Part shown: piece by piece, positions 4,057 through 44,930 of the stretch | How the letters are laid out: each line of letters starts with the position of its first letter | Position numbering within the stretch: the first letter of the stretch is position 1 | NCBI GenBank assembly: GCA_023974075.1 | Contig: CM043787.1 | Location: forward strand, 41,181,668 to 41,245,667 | Source: Chaenocephalus aceratus | Taxonomy: Eukaryota; Chordata; Actinopteri; Perciformes; Channichthyidae | Direction of reading: 5' to 3' | DNA: 64,000 nucleotides | Notes under the pieces: model-generated | Told to the model about the DNA's origin: nothing | Databases searched by the model: none | Seen by the model: only the letters and a program-made list of their open reading frames with translations | Made by a program: the position numbers and the translations under genes

Positions 4057-4245
4057 AGGTGTCCTATCATGCAAAATGCACTGTTTTATGTCTTTTATAC
4101 ATAAATATGTTCCCCCGGTGTGCCAGGGAACTCACAAAGTGTCAGAAAATAAACCCTCTCTATTTTCCTCCATACCCACATCTCTTAAAAACGGGGGTAC
4201 AATGGAGCTGATCCAGATATGCACAAGGAAATGCAGTTGTATCAG
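4057..4245 (+). mobile_element. Fragment of the Kolobok-like TTAA element (THAP-side end)
   Basis: Begins after a TTAA (4053-4056) with AGGTGTCCTATCATGC. It continues with a sequence closely matching the reverse complement of the right end of the 31037-33811 element, including the shared ccagggaactcac and tctattttcctcc blocks. The rest of the element is missing. A second TTAA element starts about 100 bp further on. Confidence 0.72.
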
Positions 4246-15936: not shown

Positions 15937-16382
15937 CAGGGTGGGAATTTCACGACGGCCATGGCCGTCGTTGCCCTGCCCTGTGAAAAAAAATGCAATT
16001 CACGGCCAAAGTGGCCTTTGTGCCCCTGTCAAAAATTCCAGTGTAAATAACGCCAGTGAAGTTAGACTAGTACGCGCAGTAGTATAGTCCCGTGCCTGTG
16101 GATCAGAGCGATTGCTCTGCTGTGATTGTTCTGCCAGACATGCCATGTAAACAACGCGAGTGAAGTCATATTAGTGCGCGCAGTCCCGCTGTTATTGTTC
16201 CGTCAGACATGCCGGTAGGTGCCCGACAGCCTCCTCCTCAGCCGCGGGAGCAAGAGAAGCACAGGTAAGCAAGCGGACCAAGCTGTTTTGATATGATGTG
16301 GTAGTATTTGAAAGGACTTAACATTTACGTGTTTATAGAAAGTACTATTGATAGGTAATTATCATTGTATTAGCCTATTTAA

Positions 16383-18373
16383 AGAGCCTGTGACAGCATC
16401 CCAACAACTGTTGTGCAATGAAATATTGGGCTACTAGTAATCTCGAACCGTCAGTTTAAAAAAGAAAAAGCGATACCGTTCCGTTAAAGATCAATAATTT
16501 CGAACATCGCGGGGAAATTCCTTCAACTCATTTTGAAGTTTTGGGGGAAGCCGGAAGTGACGTCAATGCGGGAACGCTTCGAGAGCCAAACACGGACAAA
16601 GTGTGTTGTCATGCGTAGAAATGGTGAATTACTGAGATTAGGCACGTTAATAACGTTTTAATGAAGTTGACTACAGTATATTCATATTTGTCAGTGCTTT
16701 CATGTCATAAAACATAAATGATCGTGGTGAAGATGATGATTACATTTGGATTAAAAATCGGGAGTGAGAGCTGCTGAATTTCCTCCCGTCGGATGTGATA
16801 AAAACAAATCGATTATTTTTGTGGTTGTAAACTCAAGTGGATGAAACTACATTTATTAGTGCTTTCATGTCAATTCGGCGAACATATGATACATTAAATG
16901 ATCGTGAGGATGATGATTTAAAAATCGTTTGTTTGAGCCGGTCTGCATTTCCTGATGAGAAACAAACCGATGCTTTTTGTAGTTGTAGTACACCAACAAC
17001 ATGGATTAAACGTGTGTTTTTTTTACCACAATGTTGGGGAAATAAATGGATAAAATGCACGGATTATTATTATTCCCACTCCGATCGGGTCACTAGGTCC
17101 ACCGGTTCCCCGCAGCGAGGCTCCCCCGTTGACAGTTTACGTGGGCTGGGTGCAGTGGCGGACTGGCCATCGGGACGAATCCCGATGGGCCGGTACGGAA
17201 GTGGGCCGGTCGGATAAGTAACTAGCACATCCCCCATAGGCGGCGCGTGAGGCTCAGGTTTGAGAAGGCTAAATAACTTCTTTTACCTGCCGCTGCCCGC
17301 CTCCGGCGTCTATAGAAAAGAGATCAACTCAGTGTGCGGAGTTTAAATCTCTCAAGTCATATTACAGGATAAAGGAAATACAGTTTAAACTGCCGTATGC
17401 AGAGAAGACGCCGACGTGTCGCACTTATCATTCATATTACATCATCGATCATATAATATCATAATATATCATACATTTCCTTATCTGAGTCAGCTTCTCC
17501 AGCCTCATCTGGCCGTGCAACACTCACAGTGTCACGGACTGTATGCAGAAGTATTATTTAACACATTATGTTGACGAAACACTCGAGACAAATGTAATTA
17601 AAGTCAGATCCACTCGTGTCTTAGACGTGAACGCGCTCTCAGCTGGAGAGAGAAACCCTGGCTTGATTTACCGAGTTGATAACCAGCGTCGTAGGACCGC
17701 TTAGCGAGATCTCGTTTGTTAGTTGTTGTTGTTAGTTTGTTTGTTACTCAAACATATCCAGGGTCTGTTGAACTGGCTTCGTAGTACAGGGCACAGGTGG
17801 CTAGCAGCGCTAATGTCAAAGACACAGACATTATACATTATATTTGTATTTTACCAGGATGCAGTGACACAAATATTTACATATTTACATTTACTATGGC
17901 CGGTCGAGAGTCCCGGGATGATTTTTAGTCCCATTCCACCACTGGCTACATGACCGTATGATCGCCCATATTGACGCACCTCATTCCTAAACTTCTAACA
18001 GATACAACATAACATCCTTCAGCCTCATATGAGCTCTCAGACACGTTCAACATTAACCTGTCATCGCTGTCTGAGCTTGCTGTTGTGTGCGCCGCGTGCG
18101 TTTACATCTGACTGTATATATAAAGGTTTACATGCAGATGCTGGCATCCTGGACGGTGCAGCTGGAGCGCTGTGCCCGCAATGACGTCACCCATCATTTG
18201 GCGGGACTTGAAGAATCCGCGAGAAGATCCAGAAAATTGGCAACATTTAAGGGCAGATTAATGGTTATCAAAGTACAAATATCCAAAATCAGTTCAGTAA
18301 CGGCTTTCAAGGGGACAATATGTACTCAAATTGATGGGTTTGGATGATGGGGGAAAACCGTGTCACAGGCTCT
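16383..18373. mobile_element. TTAA-flanked Kolobok-like non-autonomous element, 1,991 bp
   Basis: Terminal repeats AGAGCCTGTGACA and TGTCACAGGCTCT are perfect over 13 bp and flanked by TTAA at 16379-16382 and 18374-18377. TGACGTCA occurs at 16558-16565 and 18182-18189, 175 and 184 bp from the two ends. An imperfect internal duplication of about 165 bp covers 16676-16830 and 16846-16990 (shared gtgctttcatgtca and taaatgatcgtg). About 790 bp of its length is a nested hAT MITE. Confidence 0.85.
17153..17944. mobile_element. hAT-like MITE nested in the TTAA element, 792 bp
   Basis: Begins CAGTGGCGGACTGGCCATCG and ends CATTCCACCACTG, imperfect inverted ends of a common fish hAT MITE. Flanking octamers gctgggtg and gctacatg agree at five of eight positions, in keeping with an old 8-bp duplication. 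Confidence 0.62.
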
Positions 18374-19189
18374 TTAAAGTCGACTCGTTAGTACATTTTG
18401 TCATGAAAACTAGCGATAGCTAGCTAGTTTGGATAGCGCTAACGTCTTCCCTTCAAGGGGTCTACATCTAGTGTTGCTTCTACAAGCTAGCAGATAGCTG
18501 TCACCTTTGAATCTAGTATTGTTCTTGCTAAGCGGTTTTGATATAATACATGACTGACTTATGTGGTTTATGGCTGAACTTAACGTATACGTTTAAGAAA
18601 CACTATTGCTATTCATTCAGGCATTTGTAAAACGACTGGCGTTGACGTTAGTGCTACACTTTTCCGTCATGTTGATTGACTAGCGATAGCTGGTGAGCTA
18701 TCATCACTAGTTAGGAGGATACGTCTCTCTTTGAAGGAATTGTAGGGGTTACTTTTGGAATCCTTCTCATATGATTTTCTGGGCTTTTGGAACTAAAATT
18801 CTGACATTTCTGTGAGATGATGCATAATGTTTCAGTTTATCCTATAGTTAAGTTGTGGGTTTTTGCTGGCATCATGTGGGTGATTCAAACTCTGAAATAG
18901 CAGCTTGATTCACACTTGATCAAATGTAAAACAGCGCTGATGTAATCCAAGTATTTAGAATACGGTAATTAGATGGAGTAATGTAACGGAATATGTTACA
19001 AATGACATTTTAGAGCATGTATTCTGTAACTCCTGCTTAATACATCATTAATGTTTCTTGGTGAATGAGAATGTCACGGTATTAATCTGAAAGGTAAAAC
19101 CAGCGTCATGTGGCCTTTGTGCCCTTGAAAAAAATGTGAACGGGAAGGCCAAATGGCCTTGCCCCTAAAATGACGAAATTCCAAGCCTG

Positions 19190-21354: not shown

Positions 21355-21563
21355 ATTATTTGTTTAAAGGATCCGTTAAAGATCAAATGCAAAGCTTCCA
21401 AATATGCTAAATTTTTATAGAAATGTTGTTTTTAAGACTGCCTGTATTTTTAATTTAATTTAAATCGAGATAATACACCAAAAAAAAAGCTTTTTATTGA
21501 TACAAAACTCGCCCAAAGCCGTCTGAATTTCTGACATGTCATTCCCTGCAGCCTCCGCGCGCG

Positions 21564-21571: not shown

Positions 21572-22364
21572 TTGTGGCCAAACGGTCTCTGGGCCAAATC
21601 CCGAATCGGCAGTCTCGTTCACATGTCAGCGGTGTTTTTCGAAAAAAAACTGAATTATATCCGCAAAAACATGGGTTATTGTTGTGCTTTTGGATGTACG
21701 AACGGTGCGGGATCTGGGAGAATCCGAAACTGGATTTTTTTTTTTTTGTGAATCGTGTTGGCTGGCAGCTGACAAAATGGAGCAAGTTGTGCTCTGACCT
21801 CTTCGCCGTGTGATGCATACGATGTTGATCCTGCCATCGTCAAGTCTGTTGTTGGAGAAGCATTAAAAGTACATCGGAGGCTGAAACCCGGAGCCGTCCC
21901 CTCCATATTTGAGCACAAAAACAACTGAAAGAACGAAAGAGCCGGGCAATGCAGAAACGCCAAAGAATTGAGGTAAACCACTTTTGATTGATTTCAAAGC
22001 GCACGAAGCACAGCAGATAACGGAATTGCAGTTTTATTGCTTAGATTCTGTGTCTTTACGATCATAAACAATGTGTTGGATGTGGAGCTAGGATAAGTAA
22101 TAAGGGAGCTAGGAATGATTTTCGGTGCAGTAATAGGTTAGCATTTTTCGCTCGGGGCTAATTCAGAGGCTCACTGTTAGCATTGTGTTTTTCTTCTTCA
22201 AATAAATGAAAAAGATCAGTTGAGTTTTTTCCCCGTTATATGGATATAAAATATTCAGTTTATTAAATATTAAGGTTCCTTAGACGTCGTTTCCTGCAAA
22301 TGACGCGATTTCGGGTCCGTGGGGCTAAGAGGATAACAGAGTATGTTTATTTATTTTTCACAAC

Positions 22365-22802
22365 AGTTTTATTTGGATGGAATGAATACCTATAGTGATA
22401 ATTCAAAGTAATAAAATGATTTTTACAGTGAAAAAGTTCAAATGGAACTTTATTTTTCTAAACCTCTCTAAAAAGGTCAAATTTCACTTGTTTTGCATCA
22501 ATCTTGATACAGGGTACTTATTAATGTTATAGTTTTGATTCCTAAAGCTTTTAGTCTAATAACCCATCATTCAAGGGTGGTTTTCACTATAAGTAATGGG
22601 TTTTTTTTTAGGCGGACATTAGAATTTACATGTTTTTACTATGTTCCATCTGAATTTACTTTAAAATAAAAATCTATATTGATTCTGACACTTCTACATC
22701 CAACAATTAATTTACCCCTTTTACAAGTGAAGATATAGTCTTTGTTGTGTTCGTGGCATTTTCGAGCCTGAAACCTGAAAAACAGGCTCAGGGCTTAATA
22801 GG
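22365..22802 (+). mobile_element. piggyBac-like right-end fragment inside transposase intron 1
   Basis: Matches 29800-30305 over more than 400 bp, starting at ggatggaatgaatacctatag. It ends in the same terminal block (gagcctgaaacctgaaaa, then a TAATAGG terminus), and TTAA follows at 22803-22806. Its left terminus is not recognisable. It is a solo end or deleted MITE of the same family as the neighbouring piggyBac element. Confidence 0.72.
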
Positions 22803-23568
22803 TTAAAAATATTCCTTCAAACAGGTGGTGAAAAGTTTGATGCAGGACACAGACACTGAGGATCCTGACATTGAGGGAGATACTGAAGTCGAGGAGATTG
22901 GGACAGAGGAGCCACACTCTTCTGGAGCCATGCCAACGGCTGAAATTGCAATGCAAACCGAAGTAGAGGTAAACAAAAGAATAAAGAACAAATCTATCAT
23001 GATGTAGTTGTTGTTCACATATATATACTAGTACCAATATCAGCCTTTTTGAATGGACACATGCCCTCTAATTTTTCTGCTGTTGTAATACACAATCAAG
23101 ATAGTTCATCTTGTAAATGCTCAATTTGTTGTTTTCCAATTTTATTACAGCTGCAAAACCGGAAAAAAGCATCAAGATCAAGGGAAACTGTACTTTGGGC
23201 CTCAAATCTGGTTCGGACTTCGGACAACAGACTGCACTCCTCACCACAACGATCGGGACATCGTACCAGCCTCCTCCCATAGATCTCGATGAAGACAGTG
23301 ATCATTCCGAAGATCAGTCTGATGATGAGTCAGATGATATCCTGACTGGCATTTTTCATGTGAAGATGCAACAACAGACCAGGATGATGGGAGACACAGA
23401 TGATGACAATACTGTGTAAGTACCTGTAGATGTTCAGCAAATATCGTGTTATGTCTTATATATTGAGATCTTATTGGGATATAAACCCCATGGGGTGATA
23501 TCAGATATTTAACGGCGCTGATATTGCTACATTCACAAGATTTATGACAGATAATACACTGACGTTCT

Positions 23569-23618
23569 GTGTGATATCACTATTGGATCGAGGCGTAGAT
23601 CTAATAGTGATATCACAC
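23569..23618. repeat. Near-perfect hairpin, 21-bp arms, 8-nt loop
   Basis: gtgtgatatcactattggatc pairs with gatctaatagtgatatcacac except for one position. It lies in the third transposase intron (23416-23795). It may be a small MITE remnant or a cruciform-prone spot. Confidence 0.7.
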
Positions 23619-25199
23619 CTCAGTGAAGACCCCTCTTGTATTATCTCAAACATATTAAAGTGTATTATGTAGCTATTATAAAGATCGATGAGTCAGACGG
23701 CATATATGAATACTGGTATGTGTAACTGTCAGTGTCCAGTCTCATTTCCGACGATGCCCTATTTCCACGTTTACAAATTTCAAATCTTATTTCAGGAAGA
23801 AAGAACTTTATGCAGATGCCTCGCCTCTGGAAGGCCAAAAGTTCCTGGTCTATGGCAGTTGCCTGCTGAAGTTGCTGGCCATCTGCTGTGTGTGTTTCGC
23901 CACTTGTCGGGTCCAGCTCAAGCGCGTCATTGGGAGCATGGTGGTGTTTGAACAGTTTGTGCTAGTGGAGTACTCTACCACAGAGTGTGAACGTTGTGAT
24001 CAGCTGTTTAGCGCAGTTCTCCAGTGAAGGGAGAGGGGGAGAGAGAGAGTCTCCCTCCGCAGCTGGTTGCGTAGTTTTGGCACAAGTCCGTTGTCCGTTG
24101 TAGCTAAAGTAAGGTGCTATTTTACATACAAAAACATACTGAAATAAACATGTGCTTTAAGTAAGCAAGATAACGGTGTACTATTTTATATAATACTGTA
24201 GGGATCCGAAAAAAGCTTGATGCCAAAGGGAAGAGGAAGATCCTGAACATACTGCTGATGTGGTCCAAGTCCACCAGTCACCACGTCTATTGGGTGGCAT
24301 CAACCAGCCAAGGTGACGGACCATTGGTTGTTGAGAAGTGGCTGTCGCTGCTCAACCATGTCATCAATGTCCATACTGGCCATGGACAGCTCTTTCAAAG
24401 CTGTGTACATGGTCCACTGGAACAAAAATGATGACGAGACTGGCTTATCAAAGGTACTTGAGACACAAATACTTGAGACATTTTTGCATCCTTCCAAAAT
24501 ATTTGGGGGAATCCAGTAAATACTATGTCAGACCGACAATGTCCAGTAAATTGACGATGAAAATATTTTTTCCCAAAGGTTCTAAACCCTACAAAGAGCT
24601 GGAGCTGATCGTCAAAAGCAAGCTGCTGTTGAAGGACATCGCTCGCCTGTCGCCTGCAGAACAAACGTCGTCTTTGGAGTCGTTTCATAAAGTCATTTTA
24701 TTCTTTGCACCCAAGAGCGTGCATTTCCCATTCACTACTATGGCTGCCAGGTATTTCTAAAACTTCCATTGCTCAAGGGATTTATTTTGGTGAATTGTCC
24801 TACACAATTTATATTAATAATTTTTGATGCAGAGTACAATTAGCCGGACTACACTTTAATGAAAATTCTGCACGGGCTCAAGCTATGACGCAGACCGGGA
24901 AACACATGTGGGGCGTGTCGTTTCCGAAGGCCAGGAGGGGAGAGCCAGTCATCAAAGCAGTCAAAGTTACACCAACTTTCGGTGAGTGTCTGCTCAATGT
25001 GCCTATCGCTAAGCTTTCAACAGGGCCCGAATGTGGTGTTTTTGGAATAATAGTTTCCCCCTTGTTTGTCTTTTCAGCTTATGTGCAAGAACTGATGGGA
25101 GAGGTTGTTGAGCTGCGGAATACATACCCTAGCTACAAGAAGGCCGAAGCTCTGAGGTCAAACAGACATGTCCCACCCCCATTGCTTGAGCATTTGTAA

Positions 25200-26083: not shown

Positions 26084-26866
26084 TCATTCACTGACGGCTG
26101 GTTTAAATTCTGTGTAGGCAACGCTTTCAGGATTAGGAAATGCTTTCCTGATGGCCAGTACAGCGCAACTCGGAATAACACGTCTATTTCCACGGCCAAG
26201 TTTTTGCCAAATCGGGAAGCAAAATTGCCGGTATGCCAGATGTCTGTAGACTTCATGTTCCGGTTCTTCGTCCCCATACGGCCCATTGTGGTGGGCGTAC
26301 TCATACCGGGACACACGCAGCACATCACGATCCAGACAGTTTATGTCGAACGTCCTACAGTCGGTGATGCAGACTTCTTCTCCCATCTCTTCCTTCACTT
26401 TCCCATAGTTGTAGCAGCACTTGTTTTCTCGGCCTGTAGGCATGGTCTGGCAGTTTCCACATCTACACCTGTCGGTGATGGTTGGACTAATTAAAACGGC
26501 TCGCACATTTTGAAAACAATTGTGATTTTATTGTCCAGTCAAATTAAATGTATGTTCTACCACGTAACTGTTAGTAAAATTCAAATATGCAGTAAAGTTC
26601 AAATATGCACAATATCTTAACTAATTTGATGTGCATGCCTCATTATAGCAAACAATGTGCACTAGGACATGCTTGGTGACTGACCAATTCTCAGCAGCCT
26701 CTGCCTCAGATGGCGAACTTGAATCATCGCCATCAGCACTTTCATCGGTGATGTCAGGTGACGTTTCTTTGTATTTCCTCTTCGACATCAGAGACTCGTA
26801 TAGATATGGTTGGATGTCGACAACATACTCCAGATCTTGGGTGGCCTCCGACTCAGAATCAGACAT
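26084..26866 (-). CDS. Two-exon gene for a P2X7-type cytosolic ballast domain protein
   Basis: Exon 1 runs 26866-26685 and exon 2 26468-26084 on minus, joined by a GT...AG intron that splits a tryptophan codon (phase 2). The 188-residue product has an acidic low-complexity N-terminus (MSDSESEATQDLEYV onward). It then has a Cys-rich core starting CRCGNC, with MPT, a CC pair and CITD, and ends with a YRQFC...IPSCAVLAIRKAFP segment. That order matches the C-terminal ballast domain of vertebrate P2X7 receptors, which binds zinc and guanine nucleotide in the cytosol. There is no channel part. Start, splice sites and stop are intact, unlike the neighbouring transposase. The gene starts 281 bp inside the transposon end and is transcribed toward the transposase gene. 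Role unknown: cargo, accessory protein, or regulator of transposition. Confidence 0.82.
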
Positions 26867-26950: not shown

Positions 26951-27913
26951 CGCGACGCCATCTTGTGGAGACGAGCGGCTGAGAAATAAATCGTCGGACT
27001 TGGTGTTGGGGGTTGAACAAAATAAATATTGTGCATTGCCAGACTCATATTATCTCCGATTTTAATACTGCAATATCTTGGATAGTGTTGTAGCTATATG
27101 ATTTCGTTTTTACTGGCAATTCTAAAAAAAATCTTTGCATTTGATCTTTAACCTGTTAAGCCCGAAGGCAGGGACCCTGTTTTTTTTTTCACAACACTGT
27201 GTCTCAGGGCATCTTAATATTTAAAAACCTATTAATGTGTTATACCAGATTAACGAGAAGAATCTCAGCTAACTGACAATATGAACAATTTTTACAGAAA
27301 CAAAACACAAGTCTCACAAGAAGCGTTAGCATTAGCCCTTAGCTAAAACGGGCAGATGCTACTTCCGGTTCTAACTAACAAAAACGATCTTTAAAACTTA
27401 ATATTTTCTGCATAAACTACATATCATCTGAAAGCTGATACTCCACAGATTATTTGGTTATAAGTATCATCACTGTAGGACACACATTTACTGAGCTAGC
27501 AGCCAGAACAGAGAAGAAGAAAAACAGCAGTTTTCAAAACCATAACAATAATTATGTCTTGCTGTTTTGTGATCAAAGCTTGTGTTCAAGGGAATAAAAA
27601 CGCTTCTTAAAGTTAATCCAATGTCTCTTAGTCACTTTAGAATTGTTCCTGATAATCTATCATTACATTCATGGCAGCAGAGTAGGTTTAAAGTTTCGCA
27701 GTCCCGAGCTAACTCTGTCTCACGTGCTGTTTACGCAAACCTCTCTCTACTTGACGTAAGTGTTTAGCGGGACTTAATAACTGTCACTCGATTCTATTGG
27801 CTCTAACGGTTCAGAAAAGGTGTCAATCACCCAAATCGACCAATGGGTTCCAAAGATATGATCCTGCGTAGTATAAACTAAGCCCTCTCCGGCTCCATTA
27901 CGCATTACGCAGC

Positions 27914-28073
27914 CAGAAGGGAGAGCTTCACCACAGAGCAGGAGCTAGAGATGCTAGCTGACGATAGCTATGATCATACCAGATGACTCTTCGTCGGATT
28001 ATGAAGATCTCCTCCAGCCAGACCTGGATCCGGACAGTAGTGACTCGGATGTTGAACTTCCACCACGGGAAAG
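27914..28073 (+). pseudogene. piggyBac-type transposase N-terminal exon
   Basis: Reads RRESFTTEQELEMLADDSYD, then after a one-base shift PDDSSSDYEDLLQPDLDPDS, to a donor (gaaag|gtatgt). An F-T-x-E-Q-x-x-E-M-L start followed by an acidic serine-rich region is typical of piggyBac N-termini. The frameshift and a TGA near 27983 break it. Confidence 0.62.
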
Positions 28074-28109
28074 GTATGTAATCTCTCTGTTTTTATATAT
28101 TATGTGGTT

Positions 28110-28440
28110 GGTGAAACTGCGTCACAGTGCTAGCTTAGCCAAGAAGCTACAGGAATGATTAGGCAAAATGCTAAATAGTGTTACTTGTCTTTTTGGAGTT
28201 ACATTTTCTAAATGAATGGCCAGTGAATGAATATATATATGTGTTTATTTATTTGGTGTAATATTATTCATTTATTGTCCAATATCATCCTTTTTATATA
28301 TTACTTTTGTGTTTGGAACTGCATCACAGTGTTAGCTTAGCCAACAGGAATGATTAGCCAAAATGCTAAATAGTGTTACTTGTCTTTTTGGAGTTACATT
28401 TTCTAAATGAATGGCCAGTGAATAAATATACATGTATACA
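28110..28440. repeat. Two-copy tandem duplication in piggyBac intron
   Basis: A block containing tgctaaatagtgttacttgt and aatgaatggccagtgaat occurs at about 28110-28250 and again at 28316-28440, about 207 bp apart and highly similar. Confidence 0.75.
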
Positions 28441-28531
28441 TGTGTAATATTATTCATTTATAGTCCAATATTATCCTATAAGTATAAGCCAGTGAATTAA
28501 TCTAATCTCTTTGTTTTTCCACATTTGTTAG

Positions 28532-28857
28532 ATGAGGTGTGACCCCAGCAGGACACAGCCACACACCCAGAAGACTTTCAGGGAGCAGCTTGCTGCAGAA
28601 TTGTTGGAGTTTGCTGAAGGCCCTGCTGAAGGCCCTGCACCTCCACCACCCCCTCCTCCACCACCCACATGCATGCCCGAGTATTATGGGAAGATGCCAC
28701 CAAGGTCAGGAAGAACTGCGGGAGGTGCCTAGATGCTGGACTCAAAAGGGTGAAGACACCTGTGTACTGCAGGAAGTGCCAGGTCCCTCTGTGCTTCACT
28801 GTCAAAAGGAACTGTTTCAGGGAGTGGCACGACCTAAATACTGGAACATTCAGGTAG
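28532..28857 (+). pseudogene. piggyBac-type transposase C-terminal exon, Cys-rich domain
   Basis: Starts after a tttgttag acceptor. The first frame reads KTFREQLAAELLEFAEG and a proline run. A one-base shift near 28690 leads to CGRCLDAGLKR and CRKCQVPLCF, ending CFREWHD and TAG at 28855. The C-x2-C ... C-x2-C ... C ... H pattern is the cross-brace zinc domain that binds the transposon ends in piggyBac transposases. The catalytic exon that should precede it is absent. Confidence 0.72.
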
Positions 28858-28914
28858 GTATAAAGTTCAGGTAGGTATAACATTTTGCGAGTGTTTATTT
28901 AAAAAAAATAAATG

Positions 28915-29175
28915 TTTTTATATACCTAGTGTGATTTTATTGTATAGTGTGTTGGTAAAATATTTGTTGTTTTTACAAACCTACAGTGTGGTTTTATTGT
29001 ATAGTATGTTGGTAAAATGTTTGTTTTTACATGCCTATAGTGTGTTGGTAAATGTTTGAAATAAATCTGCCCCAGTTGGAGTCAAATGTTACCTATGTTT
29101 CCGGTTTTTTTTATTGTGCAAGTACACCTACACACAATCACCTACAGTGTAGTTTTATTGTATAGTGCGTTGGTA
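28915..29175. repeat. Tandem repeat, about 68-bp unit, 3-4 copies
   Basis: Units contain tttattgtatagtgtgttgg and taaaatgtttg, at about 28925, 28990, 29035 and 29150, degenerating along the array. Confidence 0.7.
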
Positions 29176-29177
29176 CA

Positions 29178-29522
29178 GGTTACATACACATACACACCCA
29201 CAGCTACACTTACACATACACACCTACACATACCCACACAGCAACACTTACATACCCACACAGCAACACTTACATAACCACACAGCAACACTTACATACC
29301 CACACAGCAACACTTACACATACAGCTACACTTACACACACAGCTACACTTACATACCCACACAGCTACACCTACAACGCGCGCGCGCACACACACACAC
29401 ACACACGCACACGCACGTACACACACATGTACACATACATACATACACACATACACACTTACATACCCACACAGCTACACTTACACATACACACCTACAC
29501 ACACACACACACACACCTACAC

Positions 29523-29562
<40 letters not shown>

Positions 29563-29564
29563 CT

Positions 29565-29596
<32 letters not shown>

Positions 29597-29673
29597 ACAC
29601 ATACACACATACACACACACACACACACATACACACACACACACATACACACACACACACATACACACACACA

Positions 29674-29704
<31 letters not shown>

Positions 29705-29752
29705 CTACACTTACACACACCTACACTTACACACACCTACACACACTCACAA
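29178..29752. repeat. CA/TACACA compound microsatellite, about 570 bp
   Basis: Starts as higher-order units (acacagctacacttacat and related) and becomes pure AC/ACAT repeats from about 29490. Long open frames on both strands are low-complexity artefacts. Confidence 0.93.
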
Positions 29753-30478
29753 AAATATTACTAACATTTTTTTATTTGTTTTTAAGATTTTTTTTTTTTG
29801 TGGGTGGAATGAATACCTATAGTGATGATTCAATATAATACAATAATTGTTATAGTCTGGTACCTGAAAAAGGTCAAATGGCACTGATGGAACCAAATGT
29901 GCCCAAAGCTTATTCCGCCTGGACTTATTTACATAAACCTCTCTAAAAGGTCAAATGTCACTTGTTTTGCCTCAATCTTGATACAGGGTACTTATTATAT
30001 GTTATACTTTGGATTCCTAAAGCTTTTAGGCTACTAACCCATCATTCAAGGTTGGTCTTCAGTAATGGGTTTTCTTTAGGCGGAGACAGGAATTTACATT
30101 TGTTGCTATGTTCCATCTAAATTTACTCTGACACAGAAAAATCTATATTGATTCTGACACTTCTACATCCAACTCACAGATGTAACCTTGCTTTGACAAC
30201 AACAATTATTCATATAAACCTTTTAGAAGTGAAGTTATAGTCATTTGTTCTGGGAATGTCATTTTCGAGCCTGAAACCTGAAAAACAGGCTCGGGGTTTA
30301 ACAGGTTAAGGGTTCATCTGTTTTTTATGGATAGTTGAGGTGAACTAGTTCATGTTCCTGTTTGTTTACTCTGTTTATTTTGTCAAATATGCCAGTGGGC
30401 TTCCATTGATTTGACCTCATTTGTGCGTTTGGTGTGTTTTTAATTGTACAATAAGATTACGTGCATTTTTGTAGTGCA

Positions 30479-31005: not shown

Positions 31006-31293
31006 AACCGTTTTCCTTATGAGAACATGTCTTTAAAGGAGACCTATCATGCTATATTTAAATGATATAGTGTATGACCATACCCATATAAGGTATATTT
31101 ATACATTTTATTTTTCAAAATACCAAACAGATCATTTTTTAGACATGCCTCGTTTCGCTCATTTTCGCTTTATTCCAAGCCCGTCTTTGAAAATTCTGAG
31201 CAGCAGCTGACCACGCCCCCCTGCAGAAGAGCAGGCATGAGCCGGCGAGAGTCACGTTACCATGCTTGCTGTGATTACGAGTGTCGAATAAAC

Positions 31294-32138
31294 ATGTCAT
31301 CTCAGAGCAATGCATGTGTTCAAGCATACTATCAATTTGATCCAGAAACTGACCCTGAAGCAGCGGAGGTTTTGGTGGAGGTGCAAAAATCTCGGTTGCA
31401 GCAGGACGTTTCTGAATGGTTAGCTTACAAGCTGTTGTCCCTATTTATTTTACTCTGTTACGATGCTTGCTCCTTATTCCGTTCATATTTTGGCTAATTA
31501 GCAAGAATGCAATGTGTACAGTTTGTAACGCAAAAACAGCGATATATATATATATATTTATAAAGGGAGACATTAATATTTGCAGCATATATACAATGGC
31601 CTCATTGCGTGTAATAGTTTACAGTCCTTTTCTTCCAACATCCTGCAACAACCGTTGGAAAGTTGAATAACTTAGGATGATAAAAAGTATAACTCCAACA
31701 ACACCTCAGTTGTCAGCAATGTGTGTAGTTTCATGTGTTTTTAAAAGCTCAGTTATTGACTTCTTTGTGCAAATTGCGCCACGACGTCATTGTACTATTA
31801 TATACTACACAGCAATGGCATAACACACCCATGTGTACGACAAAAAGGTCCACACACACAACCTTATGATTTTGAAATCAGAATATTCTTTACCCATCCA
31901 AACATGAATAATCACGACACATTTTGATATCAACTTGGAACTTTATTATCAAAATCAACGGTTAAAAAAACCCATACAAAAAACTAAATGTAGCCTACTT
32001 GTATTTTGTATAAATGACACTAAATATTTGTACAGAAGCTTTGTGAGCTGGTGCTGGGGCTTCCTTGGACGCAGGATCAGAGTGGTGATTCCGGCCTGCG
32101 TTGTCCTCAGGATACGCAGGGAGTTTCCTGATCCGTGA
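31294..32138 (+). pseudogene. P2X7-ballast-type gene remnant
   Basis: Exon 1 (31294-31418) starts MSSQSNACVQAYYQFDPET and ends inside a tryptophan codon at a GT donor, phase 2, exactly as in the gene at 26866. The second exon survives only from about 32031 to the stop at 32136. It reads YRSFVSWCWGFLGRRIR and IPACVVLRIRREFP, the C-terminal part of the ballast domain. The zinc-binding CxCxxC part between them is missing, so the gene is internally deleted. Confidence 0.75.
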
Positions 32139-32154
32139 AATGTCGATGTTGGGT

Positions 32155-32284
32155 TCAGACAGCAGCCAAATTGAACCGTGTAGCATACCCGGCGATGACC
32201 TCCTCCCTGTCAGGTCGCTCATAATGGTGCAGGGTCCACAAAGACTTGCTCGAAGATGAGGTCCATCAAGTTGGCCACGTAGGG
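32155..32284 (-). pseudogene. Kolobok-type transposase C-terminal exon
   Basis: After a gcacag acceptor the minus strand reads PYVANLMDLIFEQVF, then stops at 32219-32221. The next frame carries YERPDREEVIAGY to a TGA at 32155-32157. This is the extreme C-terminus of the transposase family, with a small deletion. Its stop lies 16 bp from the stop of the ballast remnant, so the two genes met tail to tail. Confidence 0.7.
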
Positions 32285-33175
32285 CTGTGCAATGGTAAAA
32301 AAAGCACAACAAAAAATGTGGTTTAGATTAGTATATGCATGTAAAAAACTGAAACTTCTTAGCAAAGCTCTCTATTTAGCAAAGCTCTTTGCTTAGCCTT
32401 TTCCAATCTGAGTTAGTTTTGAACCGTAACGTGCATGCTGTGTTTCTGACTCAATACAGATGATGTGTTGGAGAGGGGCTGAGCTCAGTAGACTGACTGT
32501 AATATGAGTGCTAGCCACTAATTAGCCTGTTGCTAGAGGTAAGGCCTTGTCAACAACAACAGACCGACGGGGCTTTAGCTCAGTTTTACTCGTGGTGTGT
32601 GTCCCCCCTCGCATACATACAGTGTTGTATCCTAACACACCCCCATTTATATTCATGTGCGCAAACAAGTAAACACACAAAAGCTTTTACATATAACGCT
32701 GCAAAACACGGCATGTCTCATTAGCGTAGCGTAGCGTAGCTTACAGATCGATGATATCTGATCGTTCTTACAGACTACAATCACAAAAGCGTTTACATAT
32801 AACGCTGGAAAAAACGGCACTTGCCTACAGAAGATTACGTTTGTTATTATAACTTACTCAATATGATTGTAGAGGATACAAAATACTAATAAATAGTAAA
32901 ATAAATACTTGTGTTATCGCCTAGGGCGTGGCTGTACAGCCTTCACACAGATCGCCATTACGGCAGTATGTCTGAACATGTTGGCAAATGCCTGATAATT
33001 CAAATGACAAAGCAAAGACTGCGGAGCGTACAAAATAAAATGCTACAAAAATATATAAACACCTAACCGATTACTATTTGGGTTTGAGGCGACATTGATG
33101 CGGCGAAGCTACATGCTACATGCTACAAGCTAGAGATAGCTTTATCAGGAAAAACACCGCTAAATAAAAACTTAC

Positions 33176-33472
33176 AGCTTCAAAATTGGATGTGTCCTCA
33201 CTGGCCTGGTCCCGGATGGTTGGTATTGATCCCGGGTTTAGCATTAGTTTGGAGGCATATCCGTGTTGGACTTGAGAGAAGTTAATAAACATGTCCGTGG
33301 TAAAATGTTTGGAACACACAAACAGAAATCTTCCGTGGTCTTCTGGCACATGTCCCTTGTAAATGAAGTCTAGCCACAGATTCATTTCTTTTTCCACTGA
33401 TGGCATTGCATGCAGTCCCCTGTCCCGAGTCTTGCAGCCAACAACAGCACAACGTTTAACTGGCTTAGACAT
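33176..33472 (-). CDS. THAP zinc-finger exon of a Kolobok-type transposase
   Basis: Reads MSKPVKRCAVVGCKTRD to a donor (gaagct|gtaagt) at 33175. The 99-codon exon is open and has the full THAP signature: C-x4-C near the start, an aromatic W-x2-F centre, CSKHF, and a closing SIPTI box. It binds transposon ends in the family. Unlike the finger at 21671 all four zinc ligands are present. No continuing transposase body follows except the terminal exon at 32284, so a spliced product would be at most a THAP-only protein. Confidence 0.78.
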
Positions 33473-33815
33473 CCTGGCAAGAGCAGGCAAAAACACAGAT
33501 GTGACTGGGGTGTTGATTATTTAGCCTGCCGATGCGAATGAGAGGTTTGGCAATGCACGTGGCCGTGGCTCATTCCCCTGATAGGTGGAGAGTTGACCAA
33601 TAAGCGGAGCACTTCTTTGTGACGTAGAAAAGTATTGGAATGTGGATCCGTTTTTTTCAGATCCGTTGCAGCCCCTTTTTTAGAGATTTGGCGAAGGAGG
33701 AAAATAGAGAGGGTTGTGTTTTCTGACACTTGGTGAGTTCCCTGGAACACCGGGGACACATATTCATGTATAAAAGACGTACAAAGGTGCATTTTGCATG
33801 ATAGGTCCCTTTTAA

Positions 33816-41722: not shown

Positions 41723-42100
41723 TTTTGTCAACAAAAAAACAACAAGCACAAAAGGCGTAAGGCGATCATCGTCAAACAGCGCATGGATTAAGGATCTATT
41801 GGATGAGAATGGAGATATGGAAATAATTCACTGAGGTAAGCACTGGCTGTTAATAGAGACTGCAGTTTGGAAGCCGCATTCAACGCGGATCACAGCCAGG
41901 TAAGCCTTACCGCTGAATGTGCACATATTCACAGCTGTGTGTCTCCACTGTATAACTCCGCTCTGCCGCATGGAAGTCGCGCTGCTCTGTTGATGTGGCC
42001 ATATGGAAATGTGATGCTTTGAAGGAATTGTCTTCCGATTTTTGAGTGTGTTGCAATCAGACGAATGCACTGAGGAAGCTTAAATAAACTGACGGAGAAA
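41723..42100 (+). other. BEL/Pao 5' leader
   Basis: Untranslated leader between LTR and gag. Two donor-like gaggtaagc/caggtaagc sequences occur at 41832 and 41899. Confidence 0.5.
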
Positions 42101-43414
42101 ATGAGTCAAATAATTGTTGACGTTGAAGGTGTTGAAATGGACTATGGGAAAAGAGAACGCACACTCACTGCGAAGGCATTGGTAAATAACATCAAAAAAC
42201 TTCAACGGGAACGTAAAACCAGTGTGAACAAAATAAAAGCACTCATATCAGAAATAAAAGGACACATGAGAGAAAGGGGAAATGCCTCACGTGTGCAAAC
42301 TCATTTAGAGAAATTAATTCAATTGGGTGAAAAAGCCATTATTTCACATGAAATGTTGATTCCTTTACTCCCAGAGGATGAACTGAAGAAACAAAAGGAA
42401 TGGTTTGTCAGTATCTTGGAATACAATGAAAGCTATCAGAGGGACATTAAACAGTGGTTAAAGGAGCCACAAGAGGATTTTACCACAATAACTGCTGCTG
42501 TGCTGAATATTCCAACTACAGATGACATGCAAGAGGATGTACAACCAAGTGACAGTGTGTCAAACGTGGAAATCGGAAGAAGAGCAACCCGATCACAAAA
42601 TTCTGCTTTGGGGAAAAAGTCTGCAGCTTCGTCTGCATGCCGTAAAACAGAGGCTGACTTGGCAGCTTTAATGGCAAGAAATAAACTATTAAAGGACAAA
42701 CATGAACTGGAGGAGGAGAAAATTAGGAGCAAATTTCAGATGGAGGAGGAACGAATAAGGAGGAGAAAGGAGCAACTTCAGATGGAGGAGGATATTGCAG
42801 CACATGTGGCTAAATTAGATGTGTTGCAAACAGGGAGCATCCTAAGTGGGAAAAGTTCAAAAACAAGGCATTCGGATAAAATGAACTCTTACATTGAACA
42901 AAGAAACATTAAACCACAAGTCCTCTACACTGCTAAGGACAATATAAATGCTCCACAAATGTTGCTAAACCAAAGGGAGGCTAGCATTGACTTTTTGGAT
43001 CCAACAACACGGCCTAATAAGAACATTTCACCTTGGTTCCTTTCCTCAGAGCCAGTATCCCAGAAAAAATCCACTTTGAAAACACAAATGAATTATGGAG
43101 ATAGCTTGAACGCAAGTGAAGATCAAAACAACATACTGGGCATTATGAGAAAACAAAATGAAATAACCACCCTGTTAATACAACAGCAATGCCTTTCATC
43201 CTTGCCAAAGAGAGAGATTCCAGTTTTTGATGGCGACCCGTTAAAATATCACACATTTATGAAGGCTTTTGAGAATGGTGTTGAGAAAAACACAAACAGC
43301 TACAGTGACCGACTCTACTTTCTGGAGCAGTACACTCAGGGTCTTCCCACGGAATTGTTCGAAGTTGCCAGCACATGGATCCAGAGAGGGGATACATCAA
43401 GGCTAAAGCTCTAA
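42101..43414 (+). pseudogene. gag: BEL/Pao gag, N-terminal part
   Basis: 437 codons from an ATG in a purine-rich context. Residues 1-120 are lysine-rich and helical. Residues 185-245 form a strong charged coiled coil (LEEEKIRSKFQMEEERIRRR). The C-terminal 75 residues contain the DUF1759-type segment of Pao-family elements (IPVFDGDPLKYHTFMKAF). The frame then runs into unrelated codons after a one-base loss near 43340-43370; the family continues in the next frame. Confidence 0.85.
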
Positions 43415-44030
43415 TCCAGGAGCAGTTTGGAAATGAGCAGAAAGTGGCATCTGCTTATCTGCAAAAGGCTCTTTCATGGCCTCCTATAAGAACAGACGAT
43501 GTTAAGGCTCTGCAAGACTACAACTTCTTCCTTCGAGCGTGTGCAAACGCAATGGAAGAGGTGCAGTATTTGCATGAGCTTGACATGGCTGCGAATATGA
43601 TGATCATAATAAGAAAGTTACCTTACCATTTCAGAGACAAGTGGAGAACTTTAGCCTGTGAGCTGCAGGAGAGGAACAGCCGCAGAGCAACATTCTTTGA
43701 CATCACACACTTCATTGAGAGACAAGTTAAAATCTTAACCGACCCAGTATTTGGAAACATTCAAGATGCTCCATTCATAACAACAAATACTGCTTTAAAC
43801 AGATCACAGCCTCACTCACATTTCGTAGGAACTAGCTTTGCCACCACTGTAGCTCTTGTAGAAAAAGAAACTCAGACAGATACTGAAGGGAAGGAACACA
43901 TTCTGACAAGATGGAGGACATGTCTGTGCTGCGGAGGAGGTCACACCTTAGACTCGTGCCATCAGCTTGAAAAAGGAACACACAAAGAGAAGATAGGCTT
44001 CTTGATGGAAAAGGTGTCTGTTTCGGCTGT
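43375..44030 (+). pseudogene. gag: BEL/Pao gag, C-terminal part with zinc knuckle
   Basis: Continues the gag homology in the second frame: FGNEQKVASAYLQKALSW, a helical capsid-like region, then a Cys-rich CLCCGGGHTLDSCHQLE knuckle at about 43920-43970. A second shift near 44000-44030 moves homology into the protease frame. The open frame itself runs to 44241 but the tail after the shift is not protein-like. Confidence 0.8.
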
Positions 44031-44930
44031 TTGTGCGTGGGGCACATTAGCAGAAATTGCAATAAGCAAATTTCCTGTTCAAAATGTGACTTCAAACATC
44101 CAACCATACTTCACATCCCTTCCAATGAAGCAAGACACAATGCTGCTCAAGCCAAGAATACATCAGAGCTATCAGTGGACAGCGCACTGGTTTCAAGTGG
44201 CCTTACAGGGGCTGGTGATGACAATTGCAAACTTCCCATAGTTCCAGTGCAAGTCAAGTCAACGAAGGGCAGCAAGATTGTCACCACCTATGCTTTCTTG
44301 GACCCAGGAAGTACAGCAGTGTTTTGTACAGAGGATTTGATGCACGAGCTCGGCCTAACTGGAAAGAAGGCGCAGATTAGTTTACGAACCATGGGCCAAG
44401 AAAGGGTCGTAAATAGCCATATTGTGTTCAGACTAGAAGTGGCTGGCTTAAAAAATTACAATTTCTTTGAACTGCCACAAAGCTACACCCAAGAGTGCAT
44501 GCCTGCCAGCAGTGGGAACATTCCTAGACAAGCGGATCTACAGAGATGGCCTCATCTGAAAAATGTTAATTTGCCTGAAATAAATGCAGGGATTGGACTG
44601 TTGATAGGTACCAATGTTGCTAAGGCCTTGGAACCATTGGAAGTCATATGCAGTGTGGATGATGGACCCTATGCAAGCAGGACAATCCTGGGCTGGACAG
44701 TGAATGGACCACTAGAAGGAGTGAGTGGGAATGCAATGGACTTTGACAAACCAGAAGTATCTGTGAACAGAATCTCAGTTGTGAATTTGGATGGACCTTG
44801 GCAACAGCAGTTCAGCGCAGACTTCCCTGAATGCAGATTGGAGGAACAAGCTGGAATGTCAAGAGAGAATCTCAAGTTCAAGAAGTTTGCAAAGAGTATT
44901 TTTTTAGCAAGAGTCGAAGAGGAAGTGTAA
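44031..44930 (+). pseudogene. BEL/Pao protease region, ends at the SURF6 junction
   Basis: Opens with a second knuckle (CVGHISRNCNKQISC) and carries the aspartic protease motif FLDPGSTA with its catalytic Asp codon at 44301. The family motif ILGWTVNGPLEG follows. The family sequence stops near SRENLKF at about 44880, where reverse transcriptase should begin. The stop at 44928 lies in the following non-BEL sequence. Confidence 0.85.

Follow-up and report, generated by a model that had tools for sequence, protein, structure and literature searches.

What is a gene for the tail of an immune ion channel doing inside a transposon? The question is raised by a stretch of 64,000 nucleotides from the icefish Chaenocephalus aceratus (GenBank assembly GCA_023974075.1, contig CM043787.1, positions 41,181,668 to 41,245,667; hereafter the window, located at C3:41181668-41245667 in the host genome searched below), in which a sequence-only reading had noticed an intact two-exon gene for a free-standing ballast domain of the P2X7 receptor and had called it the cargo of a Kolobok-like element. 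It is very probable that the element is a Kol0 Kolobok transposon inserted at TTAA, with two convergent genes, one encoding a THAP-DDE transposase and the other encoding KolX, a protein that serves the element and is of the kind from which the tail of P2X7 came.

Kol0 families are described in the main text of Kojima and Bao (2022; PMC9587614) as encoding a DDE transposase and a second protein, KolX, that resembles residues 476-595 of human P2X7; P2X7 was proposed there to have originated when a P2X4-like gene became fused to KolX, and nanor was suggested to be a domesticated KolX. According to the main text of Rump et al. (2020; PMC7016195), the ballast domain predates P2X7, free-standing ballast genes (nanor) exist in fish, and exon 13 of P2X7 encodes 170 residues that include the zinc cysteines. 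No word beginning with "transpos" was found in the main text of the latter paper, and neither icefish nor Chaenocephalus is mentioned in the main text of the former. The link between KolX and P2X7 was already known because Kojima and Bao reported it in 2022, in the only paper found, within the literature searched, that names both KolX and Kolobok, and the icefish element is a well-preserved further example of it, not a discovery.

The element and its two genes

The element is 5.8 kb long and has perfect inverted ends of 15 bp inside TTAA flanks. When TTAA sites separated by 300 to 12000 bases were compared for inverted ends, in the window and in 100 dinucleotide shuffles of it, the pair at 21376-21394 and 27133-27151 was the only one in the window to match at 15 inverted bases, and the shuffles contained no TTAA pair with matching ends of 15 bp, or even of 12. 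The boundaries recognized by the sequence-only reading thus stand, and enclose the following features.

21376..21379, no strand: left TTAA target-site duplication (end scan and comparison of copies)
21380..21394, + strand: left terminal inverted repeat, 15 bp, starting with AG (5'-RR) (end scan)
21671..21978, + strand: transposase exon 1 with the THAP domain, broken by frame changes (tblastn with residues 1-112 of P0042)
22145..22809, no strand: piggyBac-type remnants in the first transposase intron (blastn with the neighbouring piggyBac, 84-87% at ~22367-22806; inverted arms from 22145)
22822..25199, + strand: other transposase exons at 22822-22968, 23162-23419, 23797-23955, 24201-24458, 24575-24751 and 24831-25199 (with intron) (tblastn)
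26084..26468, - strand: KolX exon 2, encoding the ballast domain with seven zinc cysteines (profile search and cysteine alignment)
26469..26684, - strand: KolX intron, GT..AG, missing from 9 of the 11 close copies in the alignment (gene model and copy alignment)
26685..26866, - strand: KolX exon 1, encoding an acidic N-terminal part with the motif IQPYLYE, its last two bases being the start of a tryptophan codon (gene model and copy alignment)
27133..27147, - strand: right terminal inverted repeat, 15 bp (end scan)
27148..27151, no strand: right TTAA target-site duplication, also the left end of an adjoining piggyBac-type element (end scan)

The two genes converge, each starting near an opposite end of the element, with the transposase on the + strand and KolX (26866-26084) on the - strand, antisense to it as first described. 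The coordinates, strand and two-exon model of KolX (188 residues, intron of 216 bp) hold, and both splice sites are supported because precisely this intron is absent from 9 of the 11 copies aligned from the same genome. The spliced protein matches PF20478 (P2RX7_C) with E=1.3e-16, the sole domain above its cut-off, and its ballast is matched by four P2X7 sequences in PDB with E values of 1.6e-6 to 1.7e-4; the homology of the predicted protein to the ballast domain therefore withstood a profile search. Aligned with rat P2X7, KolX keeps all seven zinc cysteine positions (477, 479, 482, 498, 499, 506 and 572), Y550, and three of the five residues of the guanine-nucleotide site (R546, H547 and R578), and the predicted fold is also alike. 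It differs from P2X7 in the absence of the channel part, of R574 and of K583, and in eight added residues between the positions of C499 and C506. Fish P2X7 and nanor are reported to have the same partial set of guanine-nucleotide residues (PMC7016195, main text). The window gene was rejected as a P2X7 receptor gene, no P2X channel domain being joined to the ballast. Like KolX, zebrafish nanor is short and has nothing but an N-terminal part in addition to the ballast domain, but nanor genes are described as host genes. A scan of viral contigs for relatives of KolX exon 2 returned 12 stretches that fitted the pattern, none of which was confirmed.

The transposase consists of pieces of a THAP transposase detected by tblastn. 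A relative, P0042, matches PF05485 (THAP, 1e-14), and another, P0011, weakly matches the Mutator profile PF20700. P0011 has the landmarks GGDGR (291), TDRH (359) and DVWH (381), which by motif reading would hold two catalytic aspartates and the DxxH motif; all three lie inside the region deleted from the window copy, which has no part matching residues ~200-387 of P0011. With this catalytic stretch missing and with frame changes in exons 1, 3 and 5, the transposase of the window copy is, as judged from its sequence, dead, a point absent from the sequence-only reading. A predicted DDD/E transposase with C/DxxH, as in Kolobok, was recognized in P0011 and in copy C1012 (GGDGR, TDRH, DVWH and the E in SSLES); C1012 has uninterrupted exon blocks holding all four landmarks, and copy C5 has a frame change in the exon carrying the catalytic E. 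The closest relative of the transposase is a 618-residue protein of Gymnodraco acuticeps, and others come from bivalves, ticks, a nemertean and a sea urchin (34 proteins at E<=0.001; 7995 candidates scored). Three C. aceratus gene models that match the transposase (P0013, P0014, P0015) contain KolX antisense (84-91% over 57-96 residues). A 4-kb stretch in the transposase intron of C5 contains mainly CA-repeat frames among those of at least 110 codons, and one other frame of 120.

The element resembles published Kol0 (Kolobok-1_XT type; PMC9587614, main text) in the 4-bp TTAA target-site duplication, in ends AG..CT that conform to the 5'-RR and YY-3' termini of Kolobok, in the DxxH DDE transposase of its relatives, and in a second protein that is a ballast domain. 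It differs in that the window transposase is dead and that some icefish copies have an intron-free KolX. By the published description, the window gene is KolX, the regular second gene of the Kol0 lineage, as predicted from these likenesses, and the attribution to a Kolobok-like element is upheld. A piggyBac identity was rejected on account of the AG..CT ends and the THAP domain in the transposase relatives P0042 and P0026.

Copies in the same genome and the KolX intron

A search of the host genome (1.06 Gb) for the ballast domain gave at least 132 matches at E<=0.001 (150 of 724 candidates scored). Five insertions have the same ends, TTAA on both sides and differing flanks: C3 (the window), C9 (left end with one mismatch), C16, C5 and the C1012 group. 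The last is counted as one insertion, multiplied by duplication or assembly: the flanks of C1012, C85, C324a and C262 (right end altered) are 98.6-100% alike in their best pieces, compared up to 800 bases, and C324b, C1500 and C1580 share with the group the 8 bases past the right end. Loci L011, L012, L013, L015, L016, L017 and L018, on small contigs with shared flanks, are one insertion repeated, through duplication or unmerged haplotypes. A sixth site, C37, holds internally deleted copies.

Both genes were matched, and were convergent, in all 18 stretches around close and divergent copies and in three of six weaker ballast loci, so that the convergent layout was found in 21 of 21 fetched stretches with both genes matched, many of which are not independent. 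The layout extends to families whose KolX is only ~45% identical to that of the window (C6, C24). The six weaker matches, examined as candidates for a host P2X7, are all closer to KolX than to rat P2X7. Other copies of the element thus carry the ballast gene, and the word "cargo" has to be given up, KolX being a regular Kol0 gene that recurs at five insertions and in divergent families.

Among 11 aligned close copies, only the window and C9 keep the 216-bp KolX intron, which is missing from three of the five independent insertions (C16, C5, C1012 group). It interrupts the codon of the tryptophan immediately before the first zinc cysteine. The ballast exon of the divergent C6, C24 and C2640 begins at the same base after ..CACAG, and in C6 and C24 an upstream frame ends ..LDW; a second element in the window (31033-33815) has a frame with ..SEW directly before GT. 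Because divergent families retain it, the intron is probably old, and its loss would have been precise, as in a gene copied back from spliced RNA. The transposase blocks of copies with an intron-free KolX are still separated by introns. An intron-free KolX was not found in the literature searched, including passages of PMC9587614. By locus, the intron is missing from L009-L013 and L015-L018 and present in the window and L014, and the 3' untranslated parts differ. A second KolX intron in the 3' untranslated part was considered for a difference of ~170 bp between intron-plus and intron-minus copies and rejected, no GT..AG borders being visible by eye.

Neighbouring elements in the window

The window contains a second element of the same general kind.

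31033..33815, no strand: second TTAA element, shorter and with similar inverted ends, holding a ballast fragment at 32031-32144 (+) and a THAP exon at 33520-33116 (-), convergent (profile, tblastn, end scan)

It probably belongs to another Kolobok family and has undergone internal deletion. At L039 a similar piece of KolX lies beside a transposase, and a lone end-like sequence at position 4059, which follows TTTAAA, departs from the end of this element by two mismatches. The piggyBac-type element that adjoins the Kolobok element (27148-30309, 3.2 kb) has a PF13842 zinc finger and long internal CA repeats, and its left TTAA is the right TTAA of the Kolobok element. A pair of TTAA sites 2 kb apart (16379-18377), with ends that match for at least 12 bp and start with AGAGCCTGTGAC, is perhaps a non-autonomous Kolobok-like element. 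At 42074-44930 lie long open frames, perhaps of a retroelement, whose match to the aspartyl protease profile PF13650 (2.4e-4) is weak and does not reach the cut-off.

The role of KolX and the origin of the P2X7 tail

Since KolX accompanies the transposase in several families that diverged deeply, it would be made by the element for itself, as an accessory protein of transposition. KolX, which has 188-190 residues across copies and joins an acidic N-terminal part to a ballast domain of the zinc type, is most likely a zinc-folded partner that would bind the transposase or a host nuclear factor in the nucleus. Nucleotide binding is possible, with only three of the five P2X7 contact residues kept. 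A nucleotide role is worth considering because the THAP transposase of the P element requires GTP (PMC7776569); it resembles the Kolobok transposase in combining THAP with a DDE catalytic domain, but its GTP-binding part is inserted in the transposase itself, whereas KolX is a separate protein. By this analogy KolX could be a subunit of the transposition complex that folds around zinc and binds guanine nucleotides, a separate counterpart of the GTP-binding part of the P element, which is quite improbable.

Several observations weigh against a Kol0 element with a KolX gene that serves it. The assignment to Kol0 follows the published description, and the accessory role, although the most likely one, is a prediction from sequence. 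The Foldseek E-values for the predicted KolX fold are modest, none being below 0.001. At three of the six weaker ballast loci KolX was matched alone, with no transposase within the 5.5-7.5 kb fetched. KolX is open in four of the five independent insertions (C3, C16, C5, C1012 group) and in six of ten copies translated (C1500, with a frame change, is outside those ten); it is broken by a stop in C9 and broken also in three copies of the C1012 group. Comparisons of intron-plus with intron-minus copies give KolX a ratio of non-synonymous to synonymous change (pN/pS) of 0.38-0.47 (p ~0.10 for C3-C5 and C9-C5), alongside 0.39 for the transposase of C9 versus C5 (6 synonymous, 8 non-synonymous); the KolX ratio is 0.80 for C3-C9, 1.62 for C16-C5 (1 synonymous, 6 non-synonymous) and 0.53 when pooled. 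Compared with C. aceratus proteins, residue differences number 7/119 in KolX and 8/257 in the transposase pieces (p=0.26), so that no stronger constraint can be measured on KolX than on the pieces of the dead transposase, and for either gene the data hint at constraint at most.

The same figures bear on two other accounts of an open ballast frame beside a dead transposase. If a host gene, either nanor or a fragment of P2X7, had been captured by one copy of the transposon as passenger cargo, the state of the window copy would be explained, and free-standing ballast genes of this kind are known in fish (PMC7016195, main text); but this gene pair recurs, identically arranged and between the same ends, at five insertions with differing flanks, and its layout recurs in divergent families of the same genome, which makes such a capture exceedingly improbable. 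Alternatively, the window KolX might have been domesticated, the host preserving its open frame as the rest of the element degenerates. An open frame of 188 codons could suggest as much when the adjacent transposase has 7 or 8 lesions in ~1.56 kb, the chance of a lesion-free KolX being 0.05 to 0.11 depending on the computation; yet the frame is not special to the window copy, being open in four of five independent insertions, and KolX has no fewer residue changes than the transposase pieces. Domestication, supported neither by residue changes nor by the lesion count, is very improbable.

With KolX as a gene of the element, P2X7 would have taken its tail from a KolX-type gene. The suggestion in the sequence-only reading that such an element offers a route to the P2X7 fusion is supported, but is not new (PMC9587614, main text), and the family in the window has not emerged as the donor. 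The tree of element and P2X7 ballast domains that was called for comprised 35 sequences: the window, rat and mouse P2X7 fragments, and 32 hand-picked from 365 found. P2X7 grouped with a lungfish protein (support 77), apart from the family in the window, so that the tree does not support this family as the donor; because its branches are long and its sequences hand-picked, it gives no origin call. The KolX intron splits the tryptophan codon, whereas P2X7 has no intron there: by the residue numbers in PMC7016195 (main text), the tryptophan and the zinc cysteines are unseparated in exon 13. An intron-free KolX is therefore a plausible donor, and the exon structure of P2X7 plausibly fits its capture; later loss of an intron within P2X7 would look identical. 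That the P2X7 tail descended from an intron-free copy of KolX, inserted behind a P2X4-like gene as a ready-made exon like exon 13, is unlikely, but if true, the captured exon would have supplied the variable N-terminal part, the tryptophan and the ballast domain together.

The ballast domain of P2X7 is thus confirmed as a regular transposon gene from raw sequence, in several families of one genome, and the origin of the tail of an immune ion channel is open to study in mobile elements. Copies of KolX with and without the intron are a concrete handle on the capture of the ballast domain, and copies in which KolX and the catalytic exons are both open are material for examining the role of KolX.
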